Assembly (NCBI GenBank): GCA_937873265.1
Contig: CALMVL010000113.1
Span: 1-33,049, forward strand
DNA from: an uncultured Granulicella sp.
GTDB taxonomy: Bacteria; Acidobacteriota; Terriglobia; Terriglobales; Acidobacteriaceae
DNA: 33,049 nucleotides
Reading direction: 5' to 3'
Shown here piece after piece: positions 2,460 through 33,049 of this stretch. The position numbers and the translations under genes were made by a program. The notes beneath the pieces are model-generated. The model did not search any database, was not told the DNA's origin, and worked only from the letters and a program-made list of their open reading frames with translations. The stretch's first letter is position 1; each line of letters opens with the position of its first letter.

Positions 2460-2585
2460 GCTCCTGCCGTCTACAACTTTTGTCGCAGAGCGGAGATCGA
2501 GATTGTAGGAGAAGAGAATGCGAAATCACCTAAACTAGCTGCAGGCTGACCGACAAAGATCGGCAACGCCCTGGTGACATCTCCT

Positions 2586-3182
2586 ATGCAGCGCTTTCTG
2601 TCGTTGTTACTTTCCCGCTCCGTCCTGCTGTCCGCTTTGGCCGCAATTCTACTCTGTTCGCGCTCCAGCTTGGCTGATCCCATCGATGTCACCGCATCCG
2701 GGGTCTCGCAGTTCACGCTTGCCCCCTCGGCAGACGCCCTCGCCTTTAACGGCCAGACGACCACCATCGATCCGAGCTCAGGCGCGTCATTCGTCTTCCA
2801 AACGGGCTCATTCAGTGTCGGTGATTCGGGATGGCTGATTCAGGATGTCCCATTCTCCTTTCAGGAGCAGATCACGATCGGCGATGTGACCAATCTGGTG
2901 ACGATCTCCGGAGATGATGACATCACCTGGAGTGCGGATACGTTGCAGATCGACGGAACCGGTCCGATCGCCTTTGGCAACTACACATTTGCCTTGCAGC
3001 CCTTCACCATCTCTGACGGCGGAGTTGGCGATGTCGATCCGGTGACCCTGGACGCCACTGTTACACCTGAGCCTGGGGCCTTGTTGCTGGTGGGTACTGG
3101 GCTGGCGGGATGGGCGCTGACCGCTGCGCGCAAAGCGCGATCGGCGCGAGGCGTCTCCGGGCCGCCGCAAGCCTCAGCTTAG
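2586..3182 (+). CDS. PEP-CTERM sorting-domain secreted protein
   Basis: The ORF starts at GTG 2574 but ATG 2586 fits a signal peptide better (MQRFLSLLLSRSVLLSALAAILLCSRSSLADP). The C-terminus VTPEPGALLLVGTGLAGWALTAARKARSA matches the PEP-CTERM layout (PEP motif, TM helix, basic end). Confidence 0.85.
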   Translation: MQRFLSLLLSRSVLLSALAAILLCSRSSLADPIDVTASGVSQFTLAPSADALAFNGQTTTIDPSSGASFVFQTGSFSVGDSGWLIQDVPFSFQEQITIGDVTNLVTISGDDDITWSADTLQIDGTGPIAFGNYTFALQPFTISDGGVGDVDPVTLDATVTPEPGALLLVGTGLAGWALTAARKARSARGVSGPPQASA

Positions 3183-3239: not shown

Positions 3240-4952
3240 CTAGCCCTGCTTTGTTGGGCTTCGGCTGGCGCTGCTGCGCGGCTTCGTCGGATGTTTTTTG
3301 CCCTTGCCTCCGCCCTTCTTTCCACCGCCTCTGATTGTTCCCGTTGTGCTGCTAGGGGCGAGCAGGGAGAGTAGGGCGGGCAGATTGGGTGAGCCGAGGC
3401 CGGTGCAGGCGTCCCAACCGGGGCCGGCGCTGAAGCTGCCATTGTTGCCCTCGGTGATGTCGCGAAAATCCGCGCTCGCATTCCCGGTATAGATTTGTGG
3501 ATTGATGAAGCCGGCCGTGGCCTTGTTCTGCGCATTGGCGACGGCGATGAGGCCTGCCCACAGCGGGGCGACGGCGCTGGTGCCTCCGATGACGGTAGTC
3601 TGTCCGTCAACGCGAATGACGTAGCCAGTCGAGGGGTCAGCATCGCCCGCAACATCCGGCACTCCGCGGCCACCGGTGCTGCTGGAAGCCGCGGGAACGT
3701 TCGCGTCGGACTGCCAGGAGGGTTTCGGAAACAGGGTGGAAACGCCGCCGCCCGTGGCGCCTTCGTTGGGAAGCTCGTTCCAGACGACCTCGGAGGTGAT
3801 GGTACTGCCGGAGCCGACGAGCTTCGTGCCGCCGCAGGCAAGAACGTACGGGCTCGAAGCGGGGAAGTCGACGTTGTTCCCCGTGCCTCCGTCACTTGAG
3901 CCGTCATCGCCGGAAGCGACCGTGATCGTGACGCCGAGCGCTGCGGCGGACTGGCAGGCATCGTCCAGAGCCGAGACGGCCTGCTGCGTCCAGGAGGACT
4001 CGGGGCCGCCCCACGAAATCGAGACGACGGAAGGTTTGTTGGTGGTGTCGTGCACGGCGGTGGCGACAGCGTCTATGAAGCCTTGGTCCGTATTCGGGGT
4101 GAAATAGACGACGATGTTGGCTCCGGGGGCGATCGCACCGGCGACTTCGATGTCGAGCATCACCTCGCCATCGGCTCCGTTCGCATCGCCGGGGCTGTTC
4201 TTGCCCTTGTCGACGGAAACGGCGGTCACCTTGGGAGCGGAGCGGCCGAGCGTCTTGAAGTAGGCGGTGAGGTCCGTCGTGCGGTAGCCGCCGCCGAGTT
4301 CGATGATGCCGATCGTCTGACCGGACGCCGAGGCGTCAGCGGGCAAACCGTACAGTTCGCCGACCTGCACCGGCGTGTAGGAAACCCCGGCGGCGTGGGC
4401 GACAATATTCCCCTCGGGGTTCGACGATTTGGCTTGCGCGGCGGCCTGCGGTTTGGCGACGCGAAAATGAGGCTTGGCCTGGGGACGATTGTCGAGGCCA
4501 AGGACCGCTTCGATGGCTCCAACAAGCTCAGACGGGATGCAGATAGCCCCCTGGCGGACTCGGTACGTCGTGTCACCCACACGATGATGCGCAAGCTTGA
4601 CGCCGAAGGCGGCCTCAATGGCGGGTTGCGATCCGGTGAGCTGCAGGTTGCGGAGTTCCGGCGAGGCCATCTCGGCAGCCAGACCGAACTCTTTGGCAAA
4701 GGCCTGCACAAGCTTCACTGCCGCCGGGTCAGCACCGTGTTGTGTGCGGAACTGGGCTCGGGAGAGGCGTTGCCGGCCGAGGCTCGCCGTTTGAATCGGG
4801 CTTTTGCGGCGGACAATCACCGAGACCGTGATGGGAGCGCGCGACGGCTTGCCGGGGCTGGCCTCCGGGTGCGAGAAGGGCGCTCGCTCACTGCCGGGAA
4901 GAGGAACGCGTTCCTGCGAGGCGAAGAGGGTGACAGTCTTCCGGGTGGCCAT
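3240..4952 (-). CDS. S53 family peptidase (sedolisin/kumamolisin-like, pro-domain plus catalytic domain)
   Basis: ORF 3240..4973; preferred start ATG 4952, preceded by AAGGAGA. Pro-domain (QLTGSQPAIEAAFGVKLAHHRVGDTTYRV) and catalytic motifs DGEVMLDIEVAGAIAPGANIVVYF, TVASGDDGSSDG, GGTSAVAPLWAGLIA. Confidence 0.93.
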   Translation of the reverse strand: MATRKTVTLFASQERVPLPGSERAPFSHPEASPGKPSRAPITVSVIVRRKSPIQTASLGRQRLSRAQFRTQHGADPAAVKLVQAFAKEFGLAAEMASPELRNLQLTGSQPAIEAAFGVKLAHHRVGDTTYRVRQGAICIPSELVGAIEAVLGLDNRPQAKPHFRVAKPQAAAQAKSSNPEGNIVAHAAGVSYTPVQVGELYGLPADASASGQTIGIIELGGGYRTTDLTAYFKTLGRSAPKVTAVSVDKGKNSPGDANGADGEVMLDIEVAGAIAPGANIVVYFTPNTDQGFIDAVATAVHDTTNKPSVVSISWGGPESSWTQQAVSALDDACQSAAALGVTITVASGDDGSSDGGTGNNVDFPASSPYVLACGGTKLVGSGSTITSEVVWNELPNEGATGGGVSTLFPKPSWQSDANVPAASSSTGGRGVPDVAGDADPSTGYVIRVDGQTTVIGGTSAVAPLWAGLIAVANAQNKATAGFINPQIYTGNASADFRDITEGNNGSFSAGPGWDACTGLGSPNLPALLSLLAPSSTTGTIRGGGKKGGGKGKKHPTKPRSSASRSPTKQG

Positions 4953-5224
4953 GCGAAATCTCCTTAGGTGCATCGACGCAGAGTTTTGGGAAGGGGAAGC
5001 CCAGCCTGAGGTCCTTCCGGAGATCAGGAGTTGCAGGTTCCTTTGTTTGTGGGGCGAAGGTGGTGGTTACGTGCCGAGCGACCGATCCCGAGGGAGCGGA
5101 GGAGAATCCATCAGAAAATTGACCGACGGTGTTTGTACATTAAAGTTCAGCAATCTGGGTCGAAGAGTCTATGGAACACGATGGTGAGCTTGAACGGATG
5201 TCCTTGCGCCCGCATGCGTGGCAC

Positions 5225-5373: not shown

Positions 5374-6120
5374 TCAGAAGTGACGCAGTGTTTCGCGGGG
5401 CTCCGGTCCCGTTGTGGTGTACGCAGGATCAAGGGGATTCGAATCGAGGCGATCGGCACTTCTCTCGAGCGAACGGGAAACGAGATCGCGGGAGCCGAGG
5501 CCGATCGCCAGGGCAAGCGTGAGAACGATGCCGCCGAAAAGAATGCCGAAGGCGAGCTCGACGATCGCCCCGCCGACGCCGATGTGATCGAGCACCATGG
5601 CTCCCGTGAGAACGAAGACGAGCCACTTGACGCCCAGCGAGAGAAAACGTGCGTACTGGAGGCGAGCATTCACCGCGCCGATGAGGACGGAGCGGGCCAG
5701 GAAGCGAGCAATCAGGGTGCCCGCAAAGAGCAGAACGATCGCGCCCACGGAGTGGGTCAGGTAGGGAAGCATAAAGACTTCCATGGACGAGTTGGTGGCG
5801 TACGAAGCGTCGAAAGCGGAGAGGCCGATGATGATGCCGACGACGATAAACGCCCAGAAGACGATGCGGGTGACCAGCAAAGTGGGGCTATTGCTGGGGG
5901 ACCAGTCCGTGAGGCTGGTGCCCGCGTTGTTGCGGGAAAGGCGCTCGTCAAAGCGGGCGCTCTGAAGAATGCGGCGAAGCGCCGCCGACACACCCCAGCC
6001 AATGACGGAGAGGATGAGAACGGCCAGCAGGAGGGCGATGACGCCGGGAAGGAGACTGGCGAGCTGTACCAGAACGCGGTGCGCGGAGTCGCTGAGGGCG
6101 AAATGAATCTGTTGCAACAT
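5374..6120 (-). CDS. Small multi-TM MscS-like 'conserved TM helix' protein
   Basis: Within ORF 5374..6408. Preferred start ATG 6120 (MLQQIHFALSDSAHRVLVQLASLLPGVIALLLAVLILSVIGWGVSAALRR...). Repeated TM segments and the glycine-rich helix VGGAIVELAFGILFGGIVLTLALAIGLGSRDLVSRSLE, typical of mechanosensitive-channel-like TM helix repeats. Confidence 0.75.
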   Translation of the reverse strand: MLQQIHFALSDSAHRVLVQLASLLPGVIALLLAVLILSVIGWGVSAALRRILQSARFDERLSRNNAGTSLTDWSPSNSPTLLVTRIVFWAFIVVGIIIGLSAFDASYATNSSMEVFMLPYLTHSVGAIVLLFAGTLIARFLARSVLIGAVNARLQYARFLSLGVKWLVFVLTGAMVLDHIGVGGAIVELAFGILFGGIVLTLALAIGLGSRDLVSRSLERSADRLDSNPLDPAYTTTGPEPRETLRHF

Positions 6121-6190: not shown

Positions 6191-7408
6191 TTAGGGGTTG
6201 AAGCGGTCTGGCCAGCGCCAGCGAGAGACGAGGTACGCCTTGTCGGTCTCGAAGACTCTGGCGAGTTCTTGAATGTGGCGTTCGGGTTCCATGTGGCCAG
6301 CCTCGGAGCCGCTGGTGAGCAGGAGGTGCGACGCGACCCAGGCGAGATAGAGCGGGGTAAGCGCGCCGAGCAGGTGGCCGCGGTTGATGGTGCGCAGCCG
6401 CCAGGCAAGGGTAAAGTCGTACACGATGCGAGCCCAAAGGTCGTCGGGCATGCGGAAGTTGGGGACGGGCGTGAGCGAAAGGCGTTTTAGTCCGAGCAGC
6501 GAATTCGGCGGCAGAATCAACGACCAGATCTCATGGAGGTTCGTGTAGGCATTACGGAAGCTGTCCAGCATGGGACGAACGTCCGGCGGGGCTTCGGTGT
6601 GGTCGAGGGCGAGCTGGGTGAAGGCGCTGCCGGGGGCAATGCGGGAGCGCTGCCAGAAGGTGGCGCGCGTGTCGATCTCGGCAAAAAAGGAGCCGGCAAT
6701 CTCGCCGAGGAGGCTGTTGAGGTCGGCCTGCGGGGGCTGGGGCAGGACGCGCTCGCCGGCCTCCACTTCCGCAATGGAAAGGCCGGCGGCTGCGGCTTCC
6801 GCTACGGGCCAGACGACGGCATCGTCTTGGCCGGCGCTGGTGAAGCGCTGCGCGGTTGTGGCCAGGTGCTCGACTGCGCGAAAGGAGAGGCCGAAATCGA
6901 TCGCGAGGGGGAAGCGCGGGGCAGCCCCGAACAGGGCGCGGGTAACGGGGTAGAGCAGGGCGGCGTTGACGAGACCCTCGCGCGGACGGAGGGTGTAATG
7001 GGGAACGGCGAGGTCGTTGCCGGAGCCGAGGGCTGCGGCCAGATTGCGCAGCGCCTGCGGCGAGAGCGACTGGGCCTCCGCTCCGAGCATCAGCGAAAGG
7101 CCGGCGTGGTGCTCGCGGGCGAGCTGGAACGTGTTGAGGTAGTCGGCGGCGGTCAGCACCCAGGCGCCCTGGGCGGCAGCGGCAGGGGTGTAGCCGACGA
7201 GCCGAAGCGAGGCGATGCCGCCGCTGTCGGGCACCGTGGAGATCTCCGGCGTAGCAACCGTAATGTTCTGGCCCGGAAAAGCCACGGCAAGGTTGCTGAG
7301 CATCGCGGGGAGCGCGCTCGCCGGCATGGACGCCAGGCTCACGAGCAGCCCAGGGCCACCCGGGTGAGCGGAGGGGTTGGCTTCCATTGCGATTTGGGTT
7401 GAGGCCAT
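6191..7408 (-). CDS. Divergent glycosyltransferase family 2/GT-A-like protein
   Basis: 405 aa. Segments NDLAVPHYTLRPREGLVNAALLYPVTRALFGAAPRFPLAIDFGLS, DDAVVWPVAEAAAAGLSIAEVEAG and LRTINRGHLLGALTPLYLAWVASHL resemble the C-terminal part of GT2-type glucosyl-phosphoglycerate/mannosylglycerate-like transferases. The N-terminal half is poorly conserved. Assignment by remembered family pattern only. Confidence 0.5.
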   Translation of the reverse strand: MASTQIAMEANPSAHPGGPGLLVSLASMPASALPAMLSNLAVAFPGQNITVATPEISTVPDSGGIASLRLVGYTPAAAAQGAWVLTAADYLNTFQLAREHHAGLSLMLGAEAQSLSPQALRNLAAALGSGNDLAVPHYTLRPREGLVNAALLYPVTRALFGAAPRFPLAIDFGLSFRAVEHLATTAQRFTSAGQDDAVVWPVAEAAAAGLSIAEVEAGERVLPQPPQADLNSLLGEIAGSFFAEIDTRATFWQRSRIAPGSAFTQLALDHTEAPPDVRPMLDSFRNAYTNLHEIWSLILPPNSLLGLKRLSLTPVPNFRMPDDLWARIVYDFTLAWRLRTINRGHLLGALTPLYLAWVASHLLLTSGSEAGHMEPERHIQELARVFETDKAYLVSRWRWPDRFNP

Positions 7409-13049: not shown

Positions 13050-14876
13050 TTGTTCGGTAAGGGGAAAGGGAAGCAGCCGCTCCACGCGGCTCGCATTGAG
13101 GAGTATGCGCTGCTTGGCGATCTTGAGACGGCGGCGTTGGTCTCGCGCGAGGGCTCGATCGACTGGCTGTGCTGGCCGACCTTTGCCTCCGCAGCATGTT
13201 TCGCGGCGTTACTGGGAACGCGCGAGAACGGGTTTTGGAAAATATTCCCGGCGAAAAAGGGAAGATCGGTAGGCCGGCGGTACCGGCCAGGAACACTGAT
13301 CCTCGAGACGACGTTGGCCGGACCGAAGGGCGAGGTGGTGTTGATCGACTTTATGCCCCCGCGCGGCAAGCACTCGGATGTGGTTCGCATTGTTCGAGGT
13401 CTGCGCGGCAAGGTCGACCTGCGTCTGGACCTCTCGATCCGCTTCGACTATGGCTCGCGCGTCCCGTGGGTCACGCACAGCGACCATGAGCTGCGGGCGG
13501 TTGCGGGATCGGATCTGGTGGTGCTGCGGACCGACATCCCGGTCCACGGCGAAGGCCTCTTTTCTGTGAGCGAGTTCACGGTCCGAGAGGGCGAGACCGT
13601 CGCCTTTGTCATGACGGACGGATCCTCCATGGAGGAGGTGCCGGAAAAGGTGGATGCGGAGCAGGCGCTCGCCGAAACCGAAACGTTCTGGACCGAGTGG
13701 GCGTCGCGAGGAAACTACGTCGGACGTTACCGGCAGGCCGTCGAGCGGTCAGTGCTGACCTTGAAGGCGCTGTCCTACCGGCCTTCGGGCGGCATCGTGG
13801 CTGCGCCCACCATGTCGCTGCCGGAGTGGATCGGCGGCACGCGCAACTGGGACTACCGCTACTGCTGGATCCGCGATACCGCGTTTCTGCTGCTCACGTT
13901 GATCCATGTGGGCTATCAGGAGGAAGCCGCGTCCTGGCGGCAGTGGCTCTTGCGCGCGGTGGCGGGAACACCGGGGCAGCTGCAGACAATGTACGGCATC
14001 TGTGGGGAGCGGCAGATTCCCGAGTGGGAGGCAACCTGGCTGCCAGGGTACCGCAACTCGAAGCCGGTGCGCATCGGCAATGCGGCGGTGGAGCAGTTTC
14101 AAATGGATGTCTTCGGTGAGGTGATCGCGGCGCTGACGCGCATGCCCGAGGCGGAGGATGACATTCGCGTGGACGCGGCCAAACTGGTGCAGGCGTTGGC
14201 CGACCACGTCTGCACGATATGGACCGAGCCGGACGACGGCATATGGGAGACCCGCGGAAATCGGCAGCACTTCACCCACTCGAAGGTGATGGCCTGGGTT
14301 GCGCTCGATCGGGCGATCAAACAGCAGGAGCGAGACGGCGGCGACGCCGACCTGGCGCGGTGGCGGCGCAACCGCGACCAGATCCATCGCGAGGTCTGCA
14401 AAAAGGGCTTCAGCAAAAAACGGAACAGCTTCGTGCAGCGCTATGGCTCCGATGCGCTGGACGCTTCGCTTCTTCGCATTGCCATGGTCGGATTTCTGCC
14501 GCCGGAGGATCCACGGATCATCGGCACGGTGGACGCGATTCAGAAGCACCTGATGGAGGGCGGGCTGGTCAAGCGATACAAGACCACCGGCTCGGACGGA
14601 CTGGCGGGCGGCGAAGGCGTCTTTCTGGCGTGTTCCTTCTGGATGGTGATCAACCTGCATCTGATTGGACGTGAGGCGGAGGCGCGGGCGCTGTTTGAGC
14701 GACTGTTAGCGCTCGCGAACGATGTGGGCCTGCTCTCGGAGGAGTACGGGCCAAAGCAGGGCGAAATGCTCGGTAACTTTCCCCAGGCGCTCTCGCACCT
14801 CTTCCTGGTGCATGCCGCAATGACGCTCGACGGCGGCTGGCGGCCGGAGGTCGGGCACCTGCCGGACGCTCGCTGA
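13050..14876 (+). CDS. GH15 glycoside hydrolase (glucoamylase / trehalase-like)
   Basis: 608 aa, apparent TTG start at 13050. IEEYALLGDLETAALVSREGSIDWLCWPTF, GTRNWDYRYCWIRDTAF, PDDGIWETRGNRQHFTHSKVMAWVALDRA, QGEMLGNFPQALSHLFLVHAAMTL. Confidence 0.92.
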   Translation: MFGKGKGKQPLHAARIEEYALLGDLETAALVSREGSIDWLCWPTFASAACFAALLGTRENGFWKIFPAKKGRSVGRRYRPGTLILETTLAGPKGEVVLIDFMPPRGKHSDVVRIVRGLRGKVDLRLDLSIRFDYGSRVPWVTHSDHELRAVAGSDLVVLRTDIPVHGEGLFSVSEFTVREGETVAFVMTDGSSMEEVPEKVDAEQALAETETFWTEWASRGNYVGRYRQAVERSVLTLKALSYRPSGGIVAAPTMSLPEWIGGTRNWDYRYCWIRDTAFLLLTLIHVGYQEEAASWRQWLLRAVAGTPGQLQTMYGICGERQIPEWEATWLPGYRNSKPVRIGNAAVEQFQMDVFGEVIAALTRMPEAEDDIRVDAAKLVQALADHVCTIWTEPDDGIWETRGNRQHFTHSKVMAWVALDRAIKQQERDGGDADLARWRRNRDQIHREVCKKGFSKKRNSFVQRYGSDALDASLLRIAMVGFLPPEDPRIIGTVDAIQKHLMEGGLVKRYKTTGSDGLAGGEGVFLACSFWMVINLHLIGREAEARALFERLLALANDVGLLSEEYGPKQGEMLGNFPQALSHLFLVHAAMTLDGGWRPEVGHLPDAR

Positions 14877-14959
14877 CCGCCCCAGACAGTGCAACCCTGC
14901 CTGTCGCCGAGAAGTCTAAACAGGCTTCACACGATGGTCACTTCTCCACAGGTTGATAG

Positions 14960-17620
14960 ATGCCCCGTATTCCGCACTCGACATACCGCTTGCAGCTTCA
15001 CAAGGGATTCACCTTCGACGACGCGTCCGCAATCGCCGGATACCTCTACGATCTCGGCGTCTCGCACGTATACAGTTCCCCGTATCTGCAAGCGGCCCCG
15101 GGCAGCATGCACGGCTACGATGTCGTCGATCACCAGCGGGTGAATGTGGAGTTGGGCGGCCGCGAAGCGCACGAGCGCTTCTGCAAGACGTTGGGCGAAA
15201 CGGGGTTGGGACAGGTGCTGGATATTGTTCCCAACCACATGTCCCTTGGGCGCGAGAACCGCTTCTGGTGGGACGTGTTGGAGAACGGCACAGCCAGCCG
15301 ATACGCATCGTTCTTCGACATCGACTGGGACTCGACCGAGGAGCGGCTGCGCAACAAGGTGCTGGTGCCGATCCTGGGGGACCACTACGGTCGCGTGCTC
15401 GAGGCCGGCGGCATCCGGGTGGTGCGCCACGGCAACGACTTCGTGGTGGAGGCGGCGGGCCAGACCTTCCCGGCGTCGCCCAACACACTTCCGGTCATCC
15501 TGTCCCGCGCGGCGGAGTACTCGAAGTCGGATGCGCTGAACTTTGTCGCGGCGTCCTTCGGCAGGCTGCCCGAGCCCGAAATGTGGGATCGCCGCGCGAT
15601 CTCTGCGCGGCACCGCGACAAGCAGGTACTCCAGCAGATCGTCACGCGCCTGTGCGAGCAGAACGACGTGTGCGATGCGATTGACCGGGCGGTCCGTGAT
15701 CTGAACGAGAACTTCGACGCGCTCGACGATTTCCTCAACCAGCAGCACTATCGTCTTGCCTTCTGGAAGACCGCGGACCAGCAACTGGGCTATCGAAGAT
15801 TTTTCGACGTAAACACGCTCATCGGCCTGCGCATGGAGCGCGAGCACGTCTTTGAAGAAACGCACGCCGTCCTGATCGAGTGGATGAAGCGGGGCGTTTT
15901 GGACGGTGTGCGCGTGGATCACCCGGATGGGCTCCGCGATCCGCTCGAGTACTTCCGGCGGCTGCGCAGCCATGTCCCGGATGGTTGGATCATCGGCGAG
16001 AAAATCTTGGAGCCGGGCGAATTTCTCCGGCAGGAGTGGCCGATCGAAGGCACCAGCGGGTACGACTTCATGAATGCCGTCGGTGGCGTTTTGGTCGACC
16101 GCCACGGGGTACGAAAGCTGCGCGACATCTACGGCGATCTGACCGGCGAACCGACGGACTTCGGCCAGATCGCGCACGACAAAAAGATCAACGTGACGCA
16201 GGAGGCGCTGGGCAGCGACGTCAATCGACTCACAAGCCTGTTCGTGCAGATCTGCGAATGCAACCGCAACCAGCGCGACTACACGCGGGCAGAGATCCGG
16301 CGCGCCATCCGGGAGGTCGCAGCCTGCTTTCGCGTGTACCGCACCTACGTCGTTCCGGAGCGCGAGGAGATCACGGAGGAGGATCGCGAAGCCATCCGCG
16401 AGGCCACCGAGTGCGCGAAAACCAAGCGGCAGGACATCGATGGCGGTCTCTTTGACTTCCTGCGCGAGGTGTTGACACTCGCGGTGCGCGGCAAATTTGA
16501 GTCGGAGTTTCTGTTGCGCTTCCAGCAGTTCACCAGCCCGGTGATGGCGAAGGGCGTCGAAGACACGGCCTTCTATGACTTCAACCGGCTGATCGGCCTC
16601 AACGAGGTTGGCGGCGACCCGGGCAATGACGGCCTGACCGTGGCGGAGTTCCACGCGTACAACACAAAAATGCAGGCAACACACCCCGCGACGATGACGA
16701 CGCTCTCCACACACGACACCAAGCGGAGCGACGACGTGCGCGCGCGCCTTGCGGTGCTGTCGGAGATGCCGGACGAGTTCGCCGAAACGGTGCGGCGATG
16801 GATGGCGGCGAACGCCCGACACAAGACCAACGATCTTCCGGACCGCAACTCAGAATATTTCCTCTACCAAACCTTGATCGGCGCGTGGCCGATCAGCTCG
16901 GAGCGCCTCGAAACCTACATGGAAAAGGCCATGCGCGAGGCCAAGCAGCAGACCTCGTGGGTGGCCAACAACAAGGAGTATGAAGACGCTCTGAGAAGCT
17001 TCATGCGCAGTCTGCTGAACGATCGCACCTTCTGCCGCGAACTGGAATCCATTGTCGGTCGCGTCAACCACCCGGGGCGGCTGAACTCGCTTGCACAGAC
17101 CCTGGTCAAGTACACCTCACCGGGCGTTCCGGACTTGTACCAGGGATCGGAGTTATGGGATCTCAGTCTGGTCGATCCGGACAATCGCCGGCCGGTGGAC
17201 TACGATCTGCGCCGCACTCGGCTGCGCGAGATGGCGTCGATGACCGCCTCGGACGTGCTCGCCCGCTGGGAAGACGGCCTGCCCAAGCTCTGGATCATCG
17301 TGCACGCGCTGCACCTGCGCAAGCAGATGCCCCAGAGCTTCGGAGCCGATGCCGAATATGTGCCTGTCGAAGTTACAGGAACCAGGCGCGACTCCGCCAT
17401 CGCGTTTCTTCGCGGCGAAAACGTGGCGACGGTCGTTCCGCGACTGCCGCTGAGCCTCGCCCAGGGCTGGGGCGACACCTCCGTCGATCTGCCGACGGGG
17501 GTCTGGCGGAACCGTCTCACCGGCGAGGCGCTCACGCTCGCCGGCAAGACACATCTAGCGGAGTTGCTGGCGGGGTTTCCCGTGGCGCTTCTGGTAAAGG
17601 AGGACGCGAAGGATGCATGA
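14960..17620 (+). CDS. treY: Malto-oligosyltrehalose synthase
   Basis: 886 aa. PRIPHSTYRLQLHKGFTFDDASAIAGYLYDLGVSHVYSSPYLQAAPGSMHGYDVVDHQRVN, VLDIVPNHMS, GVRVDHPDGLRDP, TTLSTHDTKRSDDVRARLAVLSE, PGVPDLYQGSELWDLSLVDPDNRRPVDY. Confidence 0.96.
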   Translation: MPRIPHSTYRLQLHKGFTFDDASAIAGYLYDLGVSHVYSSPYLQAAPGSMHGYDVVDHQRVNVELGGREAHERFCKTLGETGLGQVLDIVPNHMSLGRENRFWWDVLENGTASRYASFFDIDWDSTEERLRNKVLVPILGDHYGRVLEAGGIRVVRHGNDFVVEAAGQTFPASPNTLPVILSRAAEYSKSDALNFVAASFGRLPEPEMWDRRAISARHRDKQVLQQIVTRLCEQNDVCDAIDRAVRDLNENFDALDDFLNQQHYRLAFWKTADQQLGYRRFFDVNTLIGLRMEREHVFEETHAVLIEWMKRGVLDGVRVDHPDGLRDPLEYFRRLRSHVPDGWIIGEKILEPGEFLRQEWPIEGTSGYDFMNAVGGVLVDRHGVRKLRDIYGDLTGEPTDFGQIAHDKKINVTQEALGSDVNRLTSLFVQICECNRNQRDYTRAEIRRAIREVAACFRVYRTYVVPEREEITEEDREAIREATECAKTKRQDIDGGLFDFLREVLTLAVRGKFESEFLLRFQQFTSPVMAKGVEDTAFYDFNRLIGLNEVGGDPGNDGLTVAEFHAYNTKMQATHPATMTTLSTHDTKRSDDVRARLAVLSEMPDEFAETVRRWMAANARHKTNDLPDRNSEYFLYQTLIGAWPISSERLETYMEKAMREAKQQTSWVANNKEYEDALRSFMRSLLNDRTFCRELESIVGRVNHPGRLNSLAQTLVKYTSPGVPDLYQGSELWDLSLVDPDNRRPVDYDLRRTRLREMASMTASDVLARWEDGLPKLWIIVHALHLRKQMPQSFGADAEYVPVEVTGTRRDSAIAFLRGENVATVVPRLPLSLAQGWGDTSVDLPTGVWRNRLTGEALTLAGKTHLAELLAGFPVALLVKEDAKDA

Positions 17621-19358
17621 GTTCAAGCTGTGGGCGCCCCATCCGCGCAAGGTCGAGGTTCAGGTGGGCGACGAGGTCTATCCGATGACCCGCACCGATC
17701 TTGGCTGGTGGGTGGGCACGGTGGACCGGGCCGAGTGGGGCAGCGACTACGGCTTTCTGCTGGACGACGACACCATCCCCATACCGGATCCGCGCGGCCT
17801 CGAAGCGCCCCATGGCGTTCACGGTCTCTCGCGCCTCTACAACCAGAAGCAGTTCGCGTGGCACGACGAGCAGTGGCAGGGGTGGCCTCTCGCCGCCGCC
17901 GTGATCTACGAACTGCACGTCGGGACATTTACCGAGCAGGGAACCTTTGACTCGGCGATCGAGCGGCTGCCCTACCTGCGCGACCTGGGCATCACGCACG
18001 TCGAACTGATGCCGGTCGCGGAGTTTCCCGGCGACTTTGGCTGGGGCTACGATGGCGTGGGCCTCTTTGCCGCCGCCTCCATCTACGGCGGACCGGATGG
18101 CCTGAAGCGCTTCGTGGATGCGTGCCACGCACACCGGCTCGCCGTGATCCTCGACGTCGTCTATAACCACTTCGGTCCGGTGGGCGCCTACGCAAACCGC
18201 TTTGGACCGTACCTCACCAACAAGCACATCACGCCGTGGGGCGATGCGGTGAACTTCGAGGAGGGCGGCAGTGACGAGGTGCGTCGCTTCTTTGTGGACA
18301 ACGCGCTCATGTGGCTGCGCGACTTCCACTGCGATGGTCTGCGTCTGGACGCCACGCATGAGTACATGGACCGGTCCGCGATCCACTTCATGGAGCAGCT
18401 CTCGGCCGAGGTCGAGGTGATGTCTGCCGTCGTCGGGCGGCGTCTGGTGCTCATCGCCGAAAGCGATCTGAACGATCCGGATGTGGTTCGGCCGCGCGAG
18501 GCAGGTGGATACGGCATGGACGCGCAGTGGAGTGACGACTTTCACCATGCCTTCTTCACGGTGCTGCACGATGTGGAGGCGGGCAAAGGGTACTACGACG
18601 ACTTCGGCTCCTTCGATCTGCTGGCGAAGTCGCTCACCGACGTCTTCGTCTACGACGGGCAGTACTCCAGGTATCGTCATCGATCGCATGGTCGGCCGGT
18701 CTCCAGCCTTTCCGCCCATCATTTCATCGGCTTCATTCAGAACCACGACCAGATCGGCAATCGCGCTGTCGGTGATCGGATCGAGCACATCACCGGCATG
18801 GAGCGGGCCAAAGTCGCTGCCGGCCTGGTGCTTACGGCGCCATGCCTGCCGATGCTCTTCCAGGGCGAGGAGTTCGCGGCGTCGGCGCCCTTCCAGTACT
18901 TCGCGCACCACGAGGATCCGGAAATGGCGAAAGCCGTCTCCATGGGCCGCAAGCGGGATTTCGCCAGCTTCGGCTGGAACGAGGATGAGATCCCGGATCC
19001 GGAGGACATCGCCACCTTTCACCGATCCAAGCTCAACTGGAACGAGATCGGCGAGGGCAAGCACAGGGAGATGCTCGAGTGGACACGAGCGCTGATCGCC
19101 CTGCGCCACCGGTCGTTCTCGCTGAACGACGGCGATTGCGGGCATACCTCGGTGGAGTACAGCGGCGAGGAGCGATGGATGGTGATGCATCGCGGCCGGG
19201 TGCACGTCCTGTTCAATCTCGGGCGCGCATCGAAGTCTCTCCCCTGCCCGCTCGGCGCGAAGTTGGTGTTGGCGTCGAACCCTTCCGTGAACGGAACCGG
19301 AGGTCTGGTGGTGCTGCCGCCGGATACACTGGCCATCTTCTCGTCCGAGGACGTCTGA
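17613..19358 (+). CDS. treZ: Malto-oligosyltrehalose trehalohydrolase
   Basis: 581 aa, overlaps the treY 3' end by 8 bp. FKLWAPHPRKVEVQVG, VIYELHVGTFTEQGTFDSAIERLPYLRDLGITHVELMPVAEFPGDFGWGYDGVGLFAAASIYGGPDGLKRFVDACH, LRLDATHEY, FIQNHDQIGNRAVGDRI. Confidence 0.96.
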   Translation: MHEFKLWAPHPRKVEVQVGDEVYPMTRTDLGWWVGTVDRAEWGSDYGFLLDDDTIPIPDPRGLEAPHGVHGLSRLYNQKQFAWHDEQWQGWPLAAAVIYELHVGTFTEQGTFDSAIERLPYLRDLGITHVELMPVAEFPGDFGWGYDGVGLFAAASIYGGPDGLKRFVDACHAHRLAVILDVVYNHFGPVGAYANRFGPYLTNKHITPWGDAVNFEEGGSDEVRRFFVDNALMWLRDFHCDGLRLDATHEYMDRSAIHFMEQLSAEVEVMSAVVGRRLVLIAESDLNDPDVVRPREAGGYGMDAQWSDDFHHAFFTVLHDVEAGKGYYDDFGSFDLLAKSLTDVFVYDGQYSRYRHRSHGRPVSSLSAHHFIGFIQNHDQIGNRAVGDRIEHITGMERAKVAAGLVLTAPCLPMLFQGEEFAASAPFQYFAHHEDPEMAKAVSMGRKRDFASFGWNEDEIPDPEDIATFHRSKLNWNEIGEGKHREMLEWTRALIALRHRSFSLNDGDCGHTSVEYSGEERWMVMHRGRVHVLFNLGRASKSLPCPLGAKLVLASNPSVNGTGGLVVLPPDTLAIFSSEDV

Positions 19359-27109: not shown

Positions 27110-27138
27110 GGCGGCGTCTGAAGCTCGTCTACGCCGCC
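27110..27138. terminator. Candidate hairpin at the convergent TonB receptor / ureide-operon junction
   Basis: Perfect 8-bp arms ggcggcgt (27110-27117)/acgccgcc (27131-27138), 13-nt loop. The right arm overlaps the last codons of the minus-strand gene. No U-tract. Confidence 0.3.
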
Positions 27139-28391
27139 AGCCCGGCCAGCGTCTCGGCCAGCACACGTGTCCCAACCGCGATATGCTCCGCCGTGGCAAA
27201 CTCATCCGGCCGATGACTCACCCCTCCGCGGCATGGGATAAAGATCATCGCCACTGGCGCAAGGCGCGCCATAAACAGCGTGTCGTGGTACGCCCGGCTC
27301 ACCATCGGCGCCGCTGCCACGCCCGTTCGCTCGCACGCCTGCCCGATCGCCTGCACAATTGCCGGCGAACAGTGCGCCGGCATATCGGCATTCATGATCT
27401 CCTCGCGCACCGTCACGCCGCGCCCTTCGGCCAGCTTCCGCGCGTCACGCCGCACCGCCTGCATCACGCGCTCGCGCCGCTCCGGATCAATGTCGCGCAC
27501 ATCCACCTGCAGCACCACCCGGCTCGGCACACTGTTCACCGCGCCGGGATGCACCGCGCAGGTCCCCACCGTCGCGACCGTATCGCGGGAGCCGCTCCGC
27601 AGCGCCTCGCGCTCGATCGCCAGGATCAGCTCCGCCGCCGCGCACAGCGCATCCCGCCGATCCGGCATCAGCAGCGCTCCGGCATGGCCGCCCACGCCCT
27701 CGATGGTGAAGCCGTAGCTGGCAGGCGCGGCAATATCCGTCACGATGCCGATAGGCACACCCGCTCGCTCAAGCAGCGATCCCTGCTCAATGTGTAACTC
27801 CACCCACGCACTGTACCGGTCCCCGCCGACCGCAACCGAAGCAAGCGGACCCGCGAAGCCGGCCTCTGTGCGCACCGCCTGCAACGTCCTGCCGTCCCCG
27901 TCTTGCAGCGCATCGGCAGCATCCGGCGCCAGCGCTCCCGCAAGCACCCGGCTACCCAGGCATCCGATGCCGAACCGCGTCGGCTCCTCCGAGGTGAACA
28001 GCACCAGCTCAATCGATCTGCGGAGACACGCCCCGCTCCGCTTCAGCGCCCGGATCGCCTCGAGTCCGCCCAGCACCCCCACCGTGCCGTCAAACATGCC
28101 CGCATACGGAATCGCGTCGATGTGCGACCCCGTTCCCACCGCGGGCAGCGCCGGATCAAGTCCCTCCCATCGAAAGAACGTGTTGCCGATCGCGTCCTCG
28201 CGCACACCCAACCCCGCCTCCCGCGCCAGCGTCTTCAGCCACGCCCGCGCTTGGAGGTCCCGTTCGGTGAACACGATCCGCGTCACTGCCGTTCCCCCGG
28301 GCGTCGGCTCCGCATCCGTGATCCCCGCCAGCTCCGCCAGTTCAGCCGAGAGCCGCGCCGCATCCACCGCAATCTCCTCCGCCGAACTCAT
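27129..28391 (-). CDS. M20 family amidohydrolase, probable ureidoglycolate amidohydrolase (UAH-like)
   Basis: ORF 27129..28538; preferred start ATG 28391 in an ATGA overlap with the upstream stop. VGTGSHIDAIPYAGMFDGTVGVLGGLEAIRALKRSG, LVLFTSEEPTRFGIGCLGSRVLAG, VELHIEQGSLLE, VSRAYHDTLFMARLAPVAMIFIPCRGGVSHRPDEF. Closer to plant UAH than to AllC as I recall those sequences. Confidence 0.75.
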   Translation of the reverse strand: MSSAEEIAVDAARLSAELAELAGITDAEPTPGGTAVTRIVFTERDLQARAWLKTLAREAGLGVREDAIGNTFFRWEGLDPALPAVGTGSHIDAIPYAGMFDGTVGVLGGLEAIRALKRSGACLRRSIELVLFTSEEPTRFGIGCLGSRVLAGALAPDAADALQDGDGRTLQAVRTEAGFAGPLASVAVGGDRYSAWVELHIEQGSLLERAGVPIGIVTDIAAPASYGFTIEGVGGHAGALLMPDRRDALCAAAELILAIEREALRSGSRDTVATVGTCAVHPGAVNSVPSRVVLQVDVRDIDPERRERVMQAVRRDARKLAEGRGVTVREEIMNADMPAHCSPAIVQAIGQACERTGVAAAPMVSRAYHDTLFMARLAPVAMIFIPCRGGVSHRPDEFATAEHIAVGTRVLAETLAGLAA

Positions 28392-29131
28392 CGCCGCACC
28401 TCGGTGCCGGCGATCGGATGGCAGTTCCAGTCCTTGTAAATGAGGTACTTCGCCGGCTGCTTGCCCAGCGCGCCAAACCACTGCGGACAGAACGCCGCCA
28501 TCCAGATAAAGTCCCCCGCCCGCACCGGATACCAGCACTCCCCCAGCCGATAAATGCCGCCGCCCTCCAGCATCAGCAGCCCATGCTCCATCACATGCAC
28601 CTCCACCATCGCGAGCGAAGCCCCGGGCTGGTAGGTCATCGTATTCACGGCAAAGTCAACACCCGCGTCCTCCGGCAAAAGCGTGCTCACCTGAAGCTCC
28701 GGATCGCCCATCAGCGGGGCCCGCGGCGCCGCGTCCTCCGTGCCCACGATCACCCGGCCCCTTCCCGCCGAGGCGACTCGCTCGATCACCGCGACCCGTG
28801 CTCCCGCATCTCCGCGCAGCAGGTGCGCTTCATCCGCGGGCACGAGAGCAAACCCGCCACGCGTCATTCGGTGGTCCCCCACAGCCGTCGAAAGCGCAGC
28901 GGTCCCGCTCAGCACGTAAAGAAACCGGTTCACTCCGGCTGCCGGCCGTAGCTCGCCACCCGCGCCAAACTCCACCGTGTACTGCGCGAAGTTGCAGCCG
29001 ATCACCGGAGCCGCGTGCACCACCGCAAGGCCGCCCGAAAGACAAGGCAAAGGCGTGCGCACAAACGTGTCGGGCGTCTGCAGATGGTGGTCGCGCCGGT
29101 TGCGGCTGCGTGTCTCGCCAAGTTCATGCAT
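28388..29131 (-). CDS. allE: (S)-ureidoglycine aminohydrolase
   Basis: ORF 28388..29170; preferred start ATG 29131. Bicupin motifs FLYVLSGTAALS, MVEVHVMEHGLLMLEGGGIYRLGECWYPVRAGDFIWMAAFCPQWFGALGKQPAKYLIYKDWN. Confidence 0.9.
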   Translation of the reverse strand: MHELGETRSRNRRDHHLQTPDTFVRTPLPCLSGGLAVVHAAPVIGCNFAQYTVEFGAGGELRPAAGVNRFLYVLSGTAALSTAVGDHRMTRGGFALVPADEAHLLRGDAGARVAVIERVASAGRGRVIVGTEDAAPRAPLMGDPELQVSTLLPEDAGVDFAVNTMTYQPGASLAMVEVHVMEHGLLMLEGGGIYRLGECWYPVRAGDFIWMAAFCPQWFGALGKQPAKYLIYKDWNCHPIAGTEVRR

Positions 29132-30374
29132 GCGCGGCCTCTGTCCGTTCCGGAGTCGAGCGCTCCCCAAACATCCGCAGAACTCCGCGCAGGGTCATGA
29201 GGGCCGCGGCTACATCTTCGGTTCTCACCGTCTCGTCAGGGTGGTGGCTCAGCCCGCCCGGGCTACGCACAAACAGCATCGCCGAAGGAACCCGCCCCGC
29301 CACAATCATGGCGTCGTGCCCGGCGCCGCTGGTCATGCGCGGCGGCGTGCTGCCGGTGGCCTCGGCGGCGGCGCTGGTCAGCATGCCCACCAGCTCCGCA
29401 TCCATGGCCACCGCGGCTTGCGCCAGTTCAACCCGGACCTCCACCGCCACGCCCCGCCGCTCCGCCGTCGTCTGGGCGCGCGTCAGCAACTCCTGCCCGG
29501 CACGCTCGCGCACCGCGTCGTCCCGGTGGCGCACATCGAGCGTCGCCGTGACCTCGCCGGGAATGATGTTGCTCGCACCCGGTCGCGCCTCCACTCGCCC
29601 CACCGTCGCGACCAGGCCCTCCTCCGAGCGCGCGTAGCCTTCAACGGCAACAAGCCACGCCGCCGCCGCCGCCAGTGCGTCGCGCCGCAAATGCATCGGG
29701 GTGGTTCCGGCATGGTTGCTCTGCCCAACAAAGCGCAGCGTATACCGGCTCTGCCCGGCGATCGCCTCCACCACGCCAAGTGGCCGGTCGAGACTTTCAA
29801 GCACCGGGCCCTGCTCGATATGCACCTCCACATACGCCGCAGCCTCCGGCGCCAGCCCGGTCTCAGCGCCGGCATCGACGCCGAAACTCCGAAGCGCCTC
29901 CGCCACCGTCTCTCCCGCCGCATCTCGCAGGCCGTGCAGCTCCGCCCCGCGCCCCACAGCGGCGAGACTGCCAAGAAACGGCCGCCGAAACCGAACCCCC
30001 TCTTCTTCCGAAAAGCCGATCACCTCAACCGCGATCGGCAGACCGTCCGCCGCAACCGCCTCAATGGCCAGCACCACGCCGAGAACGCCGTCAAAGGCTC
30101 CCGCACGGGGCACCGTATCCAGATGCGATCCAAGCAGAAGTCGCGTCGTCGAAGCATCTGCTCGCGCCGACACGCCGCGCAGGTTTCCCATCCCATCCAG
30201 CCGGACTTCGAGCCCGGCCGACTCCATCCATTGGCGTACCAACCCCTGCACGGCCCGCGCCGACTCGCACAGAAACGGGCGCGTCGTCTCGCCCGCCACT
30301 TCTGTGAACGTCGCCAGCTCGCGACAGCGTTCGATCACCCGGCGCGCACCGGGCATCGCCTCCTCCGCAGTCAA
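29124..30374 (-). CDS. allC: Allantoate amidohydrolase (M20 family)
   Basis: The ORF begins at TTG 30374; ATG 30356 is an alternative. LLLGSHLDTVPRAGAFDGVLGVVLAIEAV, VIGFSEEEGVRFRRPFLGSLA, VEVHIEQGPVLES, MTSGAGHDAMIVAGRVPSAMLFVRSPGGLSHHPDETV. Confidence 0.88.
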   Translation of the reverse strand: MTAEEAMPGARRVIERCRELATFTEVAGETTRPFLCESARAVQGLVRQWMESAGLEVRLDGMGNLRGVSARADASTTRLLLGSHLDTVPRAGAFDGVLGVVLAIEAVAADGLPIAVEVIGFSEEEGVRFRRPFLGSLAAVGRGAELHGLRDAAGETVAEALRSFGVDAGAETGLAPEAAAYVEVHIEQGPVLESLDRPLGVVEAIAGQSRYTLRFVGQSNHAGTTPMHLRRDALAAAAAWLVAVEGYARSEEGLVATVGRVEARPGASNIIPGEVTATLDVRHRDDAVRERAGQELLTRAQTTAERRGVAVEVRVELAQAAVAMDAELVGMLTSAAAEATGSTPPRMTSGAGHDAMIVAGRVPSAMLFVRSPGGLSHHPDETVRTEDVAAALMTLRGVLRMFGERSTPERTEAAHA

Positions 30375-31228
30375 GCCCGGCCTCCGCGCAACACGCGCGC
30401 CTCAATCGACCCGTGCGGCTCCTCGGTCGGCACAAAAATCTGGTTCGGGTTGTCCTGCCCGAAGCGGGACAGATCGACGGGCAGCGCATGCCGGTTCGGC
30501 ATCGACACATCAATCGCATCGATCGCGCGGCAAGCATCGAGCGCCGCCTCACCCATCGCAAACAGCGTCTCCTGCACCGACCTGCTGTGGTGCTCGGCAA
30601 AGACCCGCAGCATCGCCTCGCGAATCGCGTCGCGGGCCTGGTCAAACTCCACCTCGTGGTTCAGATACGTCCAACGGGCGCTCATCGCCGTCCCCAGCAG
30701 ACGATCCTCCGTATCCGGAAGTGTCGTCAGCTCATCCCGCAAAAATCCCGCAAATCCGGAGTTCGCCGTCTTCAAAATCACCATGTCGCGAAGTCCCGAA
30801 GTGATCACCGGCGCTTGCTCCCGTCGCTGCTCAACCGTCGTCATCTGGCGTTCTTCGCTGCCGTGCATAAAGGCCGTCGGATGCGGCACACCCGCTACCG
30901 AAAGCCGCTTCCACAACGCACCTTCAACGGAAACTCCGGCCGAAGACACCTGAGGATTCCGCCGAACCAGAAACTCCGCCACCTCTTTTGCAAAGACCTC
31001 CATCGTCCGCGCCTCGCTGGTTCGCGCCAGCGAGTACACCGTGTTCTTCATCGTGTCCGTGGGCAGCAGTCGGCTGTTGTCCCCGTCGGTAAACGCCGCT
31101 CCGAAGTCGCCGCGCAGCAGCACCTCCACCGTCCAGTCGTACACATGGTGCGCCTCCGCTTCGCGTACCAGCTTCAGCAGTCGCACCCTCGATTTGCCAT
31201 ACCGGTTCTCACCCAGCTGCGCTCTCAT
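30371..31228 (-). CDS. Urate oxidase (cofactor-independent uricase)
   Basis: 285 aa. ENRYGKSRVRLLKLVR, LLPTDTMKNTVYSLAR, MTTVEQRREQAPVITSGLRDMVILKTANSGFAGFLRDELTTLPDTEDRLLGTAMSARW, HHSRSVQETLFAMGEAAL, MPNRHALPVDLSRFGQDNPNQIFVPTEEPHGSIEA. Confidence 0.95.
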   Translation of the reverse strand: MRAQLGENRYGKSRVRLLKLVREAEAHHVYDWTVEVLLRGDFGAAFTDGDNSRLLPTDTMKNTVYSLARTSEARTMEVFAKEVAEFLVRRNPQVSSAGVSVEGALWKRLSVAGVPHPTAFMHGSEERQMTTVEQRREQAPVITSGLRDMVILKTANSGFAGFLRDELTTLPDTEDRLLGTAMSARWTYLNHEVEFDQARDAIREAMLRVFAEHHSRSVQETLFAMGEAALDACRAIDAIDVSMPNRHALPVDLSRFGQDNPNQIFVPTEEPHGSIEARVLRGGRA

Positions 31229-31232
31229 CCGG

Positions 31233-31571
31233 TCAACTCCCTCGATACGTGGTGTAACTGTTCGCTGTCAGAAGCAGTGGAATATGGCAGTGACGCTCGC
31301 CGTCGCGCACCACGAAGCTGATCTCTACAAAGGGATAAAGTCCGGAGACACCGATCGCCGCGAAATAGGCTCCGGTCGCGAACCGCAGCCGATACACACC
31401 CGCGCACGGCGGCAGCTCGCGCGGCAGCAGTGCCGGCAAACGCCCATCCTCATCGGTGCTGCCCTCTGCCTGCGTCCGCCATTCGCCGGCATCCAGAAGA
31501 GAGAGCGCAACAGCAACGCCCGCAGCCGGCCGGCCAAGCGTCGCATCCAGAACGTGCGTCGAGATCCCCAT
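31233..31571 (-). CDS. uraH: 5-hydroxyisourate hydrolase (transthyretin-like)
   Basis: ORF 31233..31595; preferred start ATG 31571 overlapping the upstream stop (TGATG). GISTHVLDATLGRPAAGVAVAL and C-terminal CHIPLLLTANSYTTYRGS. Confidence 0.94.
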   Translation of the reverse strand: MGISTHVLDATLGRPAAGVAVALSLLDAGEWRTQAEGSTDEDGRLPALLPRELPPCAGVYRLRFATGAYFAAIGVSGLYPFVEISFVVRDGERHCHIPLLLTANSYTTYRGS

Positions 31572-32107
31572 CAGAGCGCCGCCTCCTGAAGCCATCGCTG
31601 GAGTCGCAGCTCCGTAATCTTTCGCTGCTCCTCGACGGCAACCGCGAGCTCCGTCTCCGGATCATTTCCCATGCGTAACTCAATCTGTTGCAAAATTTCG
31701 CCGCCGCTTCGGCCGCTCGCGCAGATCAAAAAGATCCGGCCGAACCGCTCCTCATACCTTCGATTCGCCTCGCCCAACTCCGCCACGACAGAGCCACCCG
31801 ACTGAACCGCCGCGCCCTGCTCCCGCGCCGACCACGCCGAAGCCCGCGCGCTGACCTCCCCTGCAGCGTGCCGCTCACCGATCCTCGGATGGCTCGCAAA
31901 CGCCTCATCCCAGTCCTCTCCATCCAGCCCCCGCCACACCTCACCCGAAGCCCGCACCAGATCATCGAGAGACCCGAGCGGCCGCCGCGCCGCAACTCCA
32001 TTCGCCCACGCTCGCGACCCGCAGCAGGGCAGGATCGCCGCAGCCGCGGCCTCCGGCGTCCATGCATTCCAGCGCGCCAGCGCGTCACTCTCCATGCGGC
32101 CTAGCAT
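31571..32107 (-). CDS. uraD: 2-oxo-4-hydroxy-4-carboxy-5-ureidoimidazoline (OHCU) decarboxylase
   Basis: 178 aa; alternative start ATG 32095. FASHPRIGERH, YEERFGRIFLICASGRSGGEILQQIELRMGNDPETELAVAVEEQRKITELRLQRWL. Confidence 0.92.
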   Translation of the reverse strand: MLGRMESDALARWNAWTPEAAAAAILPCCGSRAWANGVAARRPLGSLDDLVRASGEVWRGLDGEDWDEAFASHPRIGERHAAGEVSARASAWSAREQGAAVQSGGSVVAELGEANRRYEERFGRIFLICASGRSGGEILQQIELRMGNDPETELAVAVEEQRKITELRLQRWLQEAAL

Positions 32108-33049
32108 ACGTCAGCTCCCGCCCGCCGGGTACGCCTGCCGTGCCGCCATCCTGCCACACCGCCGTGCCGCGCACGTAGGTCGCCGCCACCCGTCCCCGCA
32201 GCCGCTTCCCGACGTAGGGCGAGATCGCATGCCGAAATTGGAGATCCCCCGCCGTCACCGTCCATGCCTCCTCCGGCCGAAACCGAACAAAGCTGGCCTC
32301 GCGCCCCACCGCAAGCGCGCCGGCACGGTCCGCGCATCCCGCCAGTTCCGCCGGTCGCCGGCTCATCCAGCGCGCAACATCCTCGACCGTGTGTCCGCGC
32401 CGCAGCGCCTCGGTGTGCATCACCGGCAGCGCAACCGACAAACTCGCAATCCCACCCCAGGCCAGATCGAACCGCCCCTCCCGCTGGCGCTTCATCTCTG
32501 GTGGACACGGCGAGTGATCCGTCGCCACCAGATCGATCGTGCCCTCCTCGAGCGCATCCCACAGCAACTCGCGATTCCGGCGCCCCCGGATCGGCGGCGC
32601 GCACTTCAGCAGCGTATCCCCATCCGCGATCTCCTCCGCCGCAAACGCGAGATAGTGCGGGCACGTCTCAACCGTCACCGGCAAACCCTCCTCCCGGGCC
32701 GCCCGCAGCTCCGGCAGTGCCATCGCCGTGGAGAGATGCACAATATGTAACCGGAACCGATACCTTCGGCAAAGCCGCAGCAGCAGCCGGATCGCCTGCA
32801 ACTCCGCCTCGTCCGGACGAGACCTCAGATAGGTCGCGTATCTCCGCCAGTCCGCCCCTCGCAGATCGTCCAGTGCCGCCTCGATCGGGCCCGCCAGCTC
32901 CGCATGCACCAGCAGCGGCAGTCCCAGGCGCGCCACCGTCGGCAACGCCTGCTCGAGCTCGTCCGCGTCAATCGACGTAAAGCCACCGCACCCCGGGTGG
33001 ATCAGAAAGCACTTGAACCCCGGCACGCCCGCCCGCGCCAGTGGCTCCA
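32085..33049 (-). CDS. allB: Allantoinase, 5' end beyond the right window edge
   Basis: The frame continues past the listed start (GTG 33026, internal) to the edge as EPLARAGVPGFKCFLIHPG. Lysine motif FKCFL, LLVHAEL, LHIVHLST, ETCPHYL, KCAPPIRGRRNRELLW, DLVATDHSPCPPEMK. Confidence 0.92.
   Translation of the reverse strand, partial: EPLARAGVPGFKCFLIHPGCGGFTSIDADELEQALPTVARLGLPLLVHAELAGPIEAALDDLRGADWRRYATYLRSRPDEAELQAIRLLLRLCRRYRFRLHIVHLSTAMALPELRAAREEGLPVTVETCPHYLAFAAEEIADGDTLLKCAPPIRGRRNRELLWDALEEGTIDLVATDHSPCPPEMKRQREGRFDLAWGGIASLSVALPVMHTEALRRGHTVEDVARWMSRRPAELAGCADRAGALAVGREASFVRFRPEEAWTVTAGDLQFRHAISPYVGKRLRGRVAATYVRGTAVWQDGGTAGVPGGRELTYARPHGE

Follow-up and report, generated by a model that had tools for sequence, protein, structure and literature searches.

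The window, a 33,049-nt stretch of DNA from an uncultured Granulicella sp., a soil bacterium, carries on its minus strand, in transcriptional order, glgE (12949-10865), treS-mak (10810-7451), X405 (7408-6191), and lastly a gene for a membrane protein (6120-5374), with intergenic gaps of 54, 42, and 70 bp, respectively. The glgE product is a maltosyltransferase (PF11896 and PF21702), an inconstant neighbor found in only part of the loci, and treS-mak encodes a trehalose synthase fused to a maltokinase domain, with TIGR02456 and TIGR02457 matched above the NCBIfam cut-offs. X405 is an ATG-started open reading frame (ORF) for a putative pseudo-glycosyltransferase of 405 aa, an assignment based on homologues across the order together with AlphaFold and Foldseek, and it contains every peptide quoted in the initial annotation. 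On the plus strand, divergent from glgE, positions 13050-19358 hold GH15/trehalase-like, TreY-like, and TreZ-like genes, so that both trehalose-glucan routes, TreY/TreZ and TreS/GlgE, seem to be present here. Reading of the ORFs at 27129-33047 (minus) revealed an apparent purine/allantoin degradation cluster with two amidohydrolases, a cupin, a urate-oxidase-like protein, and, truncated by the window end, an allantoinase-like ORF. Positions 2574-3182 (plus) encode a secreted protein whose tail (PEPGALLLVGTGLAGWAL) is PEP-CTERM-like, and a 577-aa protein encoded at 3240-4973 (minus) resembles, by eye, a sedolisin-type secreted peptidase.

Searches with the X405 sequence alone returned nothing usable from Pfam, NCBIfam, PHROGs, or the PDB, and weak matches to TIGR02603 and to an Arc-like repressor were dismissed as noise. 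The AlphaFold model, built from a 71-sequence alignment, is confident (pLDDT 91.7, pTM 0.90). Its best PDB match in Foldseek is the GT78 mannosylglycerate synthase (MGS), over the full length (E 1e-9, TM 0.59-0.64), followed by glucosyl-3-phosphoglycerate synthase (GpgS), which spans the GT-A half. The predicted fold of X405 is thus of the mannosylglycerate-synthase-type GT-A kind. The initial annotation had proposed a GT-A-like protein following a GT2-type compatible-solute transferase pattern; the GT-A fold and the compatible-solute ancestry hold, and since the model matches MGS and then GpgS, and the intact relatives match GpgS/MGS, the family is GT78/GT81-like and not generic GT2.

Of 120 genomes of the order, 75 carry homologues of X405, most of these homologues being 37-64% identical and seven only 25-29%. 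The family is spread over Acidobacteriaceae (Edaphobacter, Granulicella, Terriglobus, and others), despite the lack of any Pfam or NCBIfam model that matches X405. A single family copy is present per genome in the order, and no second copy was found in near-complete relatives; the single-copy state rests on these, the genome that holds the window being 73% complete. With one copy only, X405 does not look like an inactive partner to an active paralogue.

Two of the seven divergent homologues (L051 and L052) carry the full GT-A motif set, namely, IPSYNN, NSDGASKDGT, IPGKGSA, VVDSDLRS, RQPIGGDFGFS, and GAKLHD. L051 matches glucosyl-3-phosphoglycerate synthase both in the PDB (7p5l, E 2e-4) and in NCBIfam (NF010496, E 2e-12, under the cut-off). 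More intact relatives were found across the phylum; against NF010496 the intact relatives reach E-values of 1e-12 to 1e-18 (46-66 bits vs. a cut-off of 262), and three of them pass Pfam MGS_GT (28.6-32.7 bits vs. a cut-off of 27). The descent of X405 from a compatible-solute transferase, that is, an MGS/GpgS-type retaining GT-A enzyme, is supported. One further locus (L175:7630-9495, minus) encodes an intact MGS/GpgS-like glycosyltransferase with a C-terminally fused TrkA_N domain (PF02254, E 7e-20). TrkA_N domains are usually regulators of ion channels or transporters.

A column-by-column comparison of 139 degenerate orthologues with 43 intact relatives located the losses in the GT-A-like half of X405 (residues 18-228; 6725-7357, minus), where alignment to the intact relatives indicates that the catalytic motifs are gone. 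VVDSDLRS of the intact relatives corresponds to MLGAEAQS in X405, so that DSD (or DAD) aligns to G109-A110-E111 (7076-7084, minus), the very site at which a lost DxD had been suspected from the sequence. The first Asp column is acidic in 0/139 degenerate orthologues and in 43/43 intact relatives, a contrast far beyond chance. The second DxD position is Asp or Glu in 110/139 (Glu111 in X405) and not acidic in the other 29. The NSDGxSxDGT loop is shortened in degenerate orthologues and is lost from X405, in line with the earlier observation that a GSTDGT-like nucleotide-sugar motif is missing. Both DxD aspartates, the GKG lysine, and the metal histidine are present in all 43 intact relatives, whereas among the degenerate orthologues the lysine column is most often Thr and the histidine column most often Leu, as it is in X405; the GG pair has also been lost in X405. 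RFPLAIDFGLS (residues 165-175; 6884-6916, minus) aligns as a remnant of RQPIGGDFGFS, with IDFGLS opposite GGDFGFS, and 138/139 degenerate orthologues still have an acid in the GGD/E motif (D171 in X405). In GpgS, a conserved ion-pair set is made up of Asp134, Lys114, and Glu232; the metal is bound by Asp136, and His258 corresponds to His217, a metal ligand in MGS (PMC2581804). Of these residues, X405 keeps just two as acids, those aligned to Asp136 and Glu232. Judged from these alignments, the loss of catalytic motifs in X405 is well supported.

Loss of these motifs has not been accompanied by decay. Among near relatives of X405 (68 pairs), dN/dS is ~0.12, with 0.11 in the C-terminal half and 0.15 in the GT-A half. 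In every pair of intact relatives the GT-A half is the more conserved (66% vs. 44%), and in every pair within the window's clade the order is reversed (GT-A half 44%, C-terminal half 61%); the constraint once carried by the active-site half now lies on the C-terminal helical half (residues 229-405; 6194-6724, minus), which half-by-half identity marks as the part now conserved. This half ends in RWRWPDR (residues 396-402; 6203-6223, minus), found in 139/139 degenerate orthologues; RWRW is absent from all 43 intact sequences and also from L178 and L053-L057. The dN/dS and the move of conservation to the C-terminal half together indicate that X405 is under purifying selection rather than decaying. 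Homology to an active family, loss of its conserved catalytic motifs, and maintained selection would together place X405 among pseudoenzymes of the GT-A class.

In a tree of 128 family sequences, those from TreS-linked loci group on one branch (SH-aLRT 96), within which the loss of motifs is graded. L178 keeps DAD and GSGDGT and has lost GKG, GG, and His; L053-L057 keep GSRDGT-type loops and have lost DxD; L177 and L186 keep only GSTDGT and the first Asp and already possess the RWRW tail. L177, L186, and L178, with their partial motifs, lie outside the window's order and already adjoin treS. The tree requires two DxD state changes, which could mean two separate losses of DxD within the TreS-linked clade. 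Long branches make the positions of L178 and L158 uncertain. L158, from Anaeromyxobacter soli and hence outside Acidobacteriota, is a degenerate X405 homologue with the RWRW tail and an MscS-like neighbor; at its locus treS lies 2.6 kb off on the opposite strand, and its presence there may reflect either transfer or a deeper origin of the family. The switch of neighbors and the onset of motif loss map to the same branch of the tree.

The gene downstream of X405 (5374-6120, minus) encodes a protein of ~248 aa whose model is all-helical (pLDDT 84.7, pTM 0.58). Its PDB match is the MscS transmembrane region (E 1.2, non-significant), a match to PF05552 is likewise weak, and the MscS beta domain is absent from the model; we therefore name it an MscS-like, transmembrane-only protein and a putative channel. 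X405 and this protein occur in exactly the same genomes of the order (75/75 with X405 vs. 0/45 without). The MscS-like gene accompanies the family in GpgS-linked and TreS-linked loci alike, and its spacing from X405 is very short or overlapping in several loci.

TreS is present in 73/73 genomes of the order with a degenerate X405 and in 20/47 of the remaining genomes; treS lies apart from X405 in some genomes. X405 had originally been tied to GlgE and TreS-Mak. The TreS part of this link is retained, and GlgE was dismissed as a constant partner because it adjoins X405 in only about half of the loci, as was the maltokinase domain, present in 54/75 genomes. The initial annotation had missed the MscS-like association, the strictest of all, as well as the intact ancestors beside GpgS/MpgP. 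Within the order, GpgS and an MpgP-family phosphatase occur only in the two genomes with the intact form, bar one marginal phosphatase match, and there both sit with the glycosyltransferase and the MscS-like gene. In the phylum outside the window's family, GpgS was found in 48/56 genomes with an intact-type homologue (P ~6e-39, an overstatement, as the genomes are not independent); intact-type here covers any match to the intact relative P0002, and a few such matches are degenerate. Mirror-tree partial correlations of X405 were 0.31-0.48 with the MscS-like protein and 0.28-0.35 with TreS, singling out neither partner; as TreY reaches 0.78 in a small set, these values reflect mostly species signal. 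A search for fusions of X405 to TreS or to the MscS-like protein found none, and the extended open frames seen upstream at a few loci resemble read-through of GC-rich sequence.

Taken together, X405 is probably a non-catalytic helper in the osmotic stress response. At a probability of roughly 0.55, we consider it a pseudo-glycosyltransferase adaptor that couples TreS to the MscS-like protein, with the partners and the mechanism proposed from the patterns above. Gene content and the known reactions of GpgS and MpgP indicate that the ancestral glycosyltransferase was probably encoded alongside GpgS, an MpgP-type phosphatase, and the MscS-like protein in an operon for a glycosylglycerate-type compatible solute. 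GpgS would have supplied glucosyl-3-phosphoglycerate, the glycosyltransferase would have added a second sugar or used a related acceptor, the phosphatase would have finished the product, and the membrane protein may have handled its release. In one clade, the glycosyltransferase-MscS pair would then have joined treS; GpgS and the phosphatase would have been lost, while the donor/metal site eroded and the C-terminal helical half came under constraint. Present-day X405 may bind the MscS-like protein at the membrane and bind or regulate TreS, so that trehalose formation or retention would be tied to osmotic state; physical binding, regulation, and the direction of regulation are all inferred.

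The adaptor reading is favored by the fold, the DxD-bearing relatives that match GpgS/MGS, the motif loss and its graded course within a single TreS-linked clade, the confinement of GpgS and the phosphatase in the order to genomes with the intact form (bar the one marginal match), the frequent presence of GpgS with intact-type homologues across the phylum, the maintained selection, the shifted conservation, the co-occurrence with the MscS-like protein, and the constant presence of TreS, and also by the TrkA_N-fused family member, the single copy per genome, and a precedent in Thermoproteus tenax. It accords with the earlier suggestion of a pseudo-glycosyltransferase, which is the best account of the protein. 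Against it stand the wide retention of E111 and D171, the lack of a fusion in our search, the genomes with non-adjacent treS, the undiscriminating mirror-tree values, and the non-homology of the T. tenax glycosyltransferase.

Its main rival, which we regard as a serious but rather unlikely alternative, is that X405 serves the MscS-like protein alone, as a cytosolic subunit or in its gating, with treS merely co-transcribed because both act in osmotic adaptation. The exact co-occurrence of the two genes (75 vs. 0) in both GpgS- and TreS-linked loci, their very short or overlapping spacing, and the location of treS elsewhere in some genomes would all fit such a role; the presence of TreS in every degenerate-form genome and the coincidence of neighbor change and first motif loss on one branch are harder to reconcile with it. 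A transferase with another donor, also raised in the initial annotation, is disfavored. X405 would in this case still transfer sugar from a different or metal-free donor (e.g., a sugar 1-phosphate) through E111 and D171, as might be expected from an intact predicted GT-A fold and from acids kept at the second DxD position (110/139) and at D171 (138/139), and metal-independent GT-A enzymes exist in GT6 (PMC3961637). However, X405 no longer has the GSTDGT loop, the GKG lysine, the GG pair, or the metal histidine, the GT-A half now evolves faster than the C-terminal half, and 29 orthologues are non-acidic at the second DxD position, which makes this explanation improbable. A decaying, functionless relic would account for the stepwise loss of catalytic motifs, and is very hard to credit given the open frame in the sampled orthologues, purifying selection at dN/dS ~0.12, RWRWPDR in 139/139, and the retention of X405 with its partner over many genera.

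Pseudo-glycosyltransferases are already known, and a glycosyltransferase that activates a trehalose enzyme has precedent; no description of the X405 family or its operon was found in the literature searched, most subscription journals lying outside the search. In this family, for which sampling is good and intermediates survive, an enzyme of compatible-solute synthesis can be followed on its way to a probably non-catalytic partner, as the gene neighborhood around it moves from a glucosylglycerate-type pathway to one for trehalose. If the proposed coupling is true, it would reveal how bacteria adjust the making of trehalose to osmotic conditions at the membrane, and would show transmembrane-only MscS-like proteins acting with soluble partners.

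Among characterized enzymes, X405 shares with the GT78 MGS of Rhodothermus marinus (PDB 2bo4/2y4m) the full-length fold including the C-terminal helical extension, but at ~13% identity it lacks the DxD, the metal histidine (His217 of MGS), and the GKG lysine, and gives no match to the Pfam MGS_GT profile. The mycobacterial GT81 GpgS is matched by the intact relatives in sequence and by X405 in structure over the GT-A half; X405 gives no match to the curated GT81 GpgS model of NCBIfam, for which the intact relatives score under the cut-off. Mycobacterial TreS acts in complex with a partner in TreS:Pep2 (PMC6509496); the partner is a maltokinase, which is fused to TreS here, and X405 is unrelated to Pep2. 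The msc-gt-tpsp operon of T. tenax encodes TPSP with a GT4 protein and a transmembrane-only MscS-like protein; this glycosyltransferase has no TPS activity itself and activates TPSP via complex formation, and a stress-response unit was proposed (PMC3634074). Similarly, the X405 operon combines a trehalose-forming enzyme, a glycosyltransferase-like protein, and a transmembrane-only MscS-like protein; unlike in T. tenax, the glycosyltransferase-like protein is GT-A rather than GT4/GT-B and the enzyme is TreS rather than TPSP. Because the two glycosyltransferases are not homologous, the parallel suggests that X405 works like the archaeal protein, not that it is one. We tentatively raise the possibility, somewhat short of even odds, that X405 belongs to a bacterial GT-A pseudoenzyme family linking TreS to a transmembrane-only MscS-like protein in an osmotic switch whose origin is independent of the archaeal GT-B/TPSP/MSC complex; a glycosyltransferase would then have been taken on in two lineages to regulate the link from an enzyme of trehalose synthesis to a channel-like protein.
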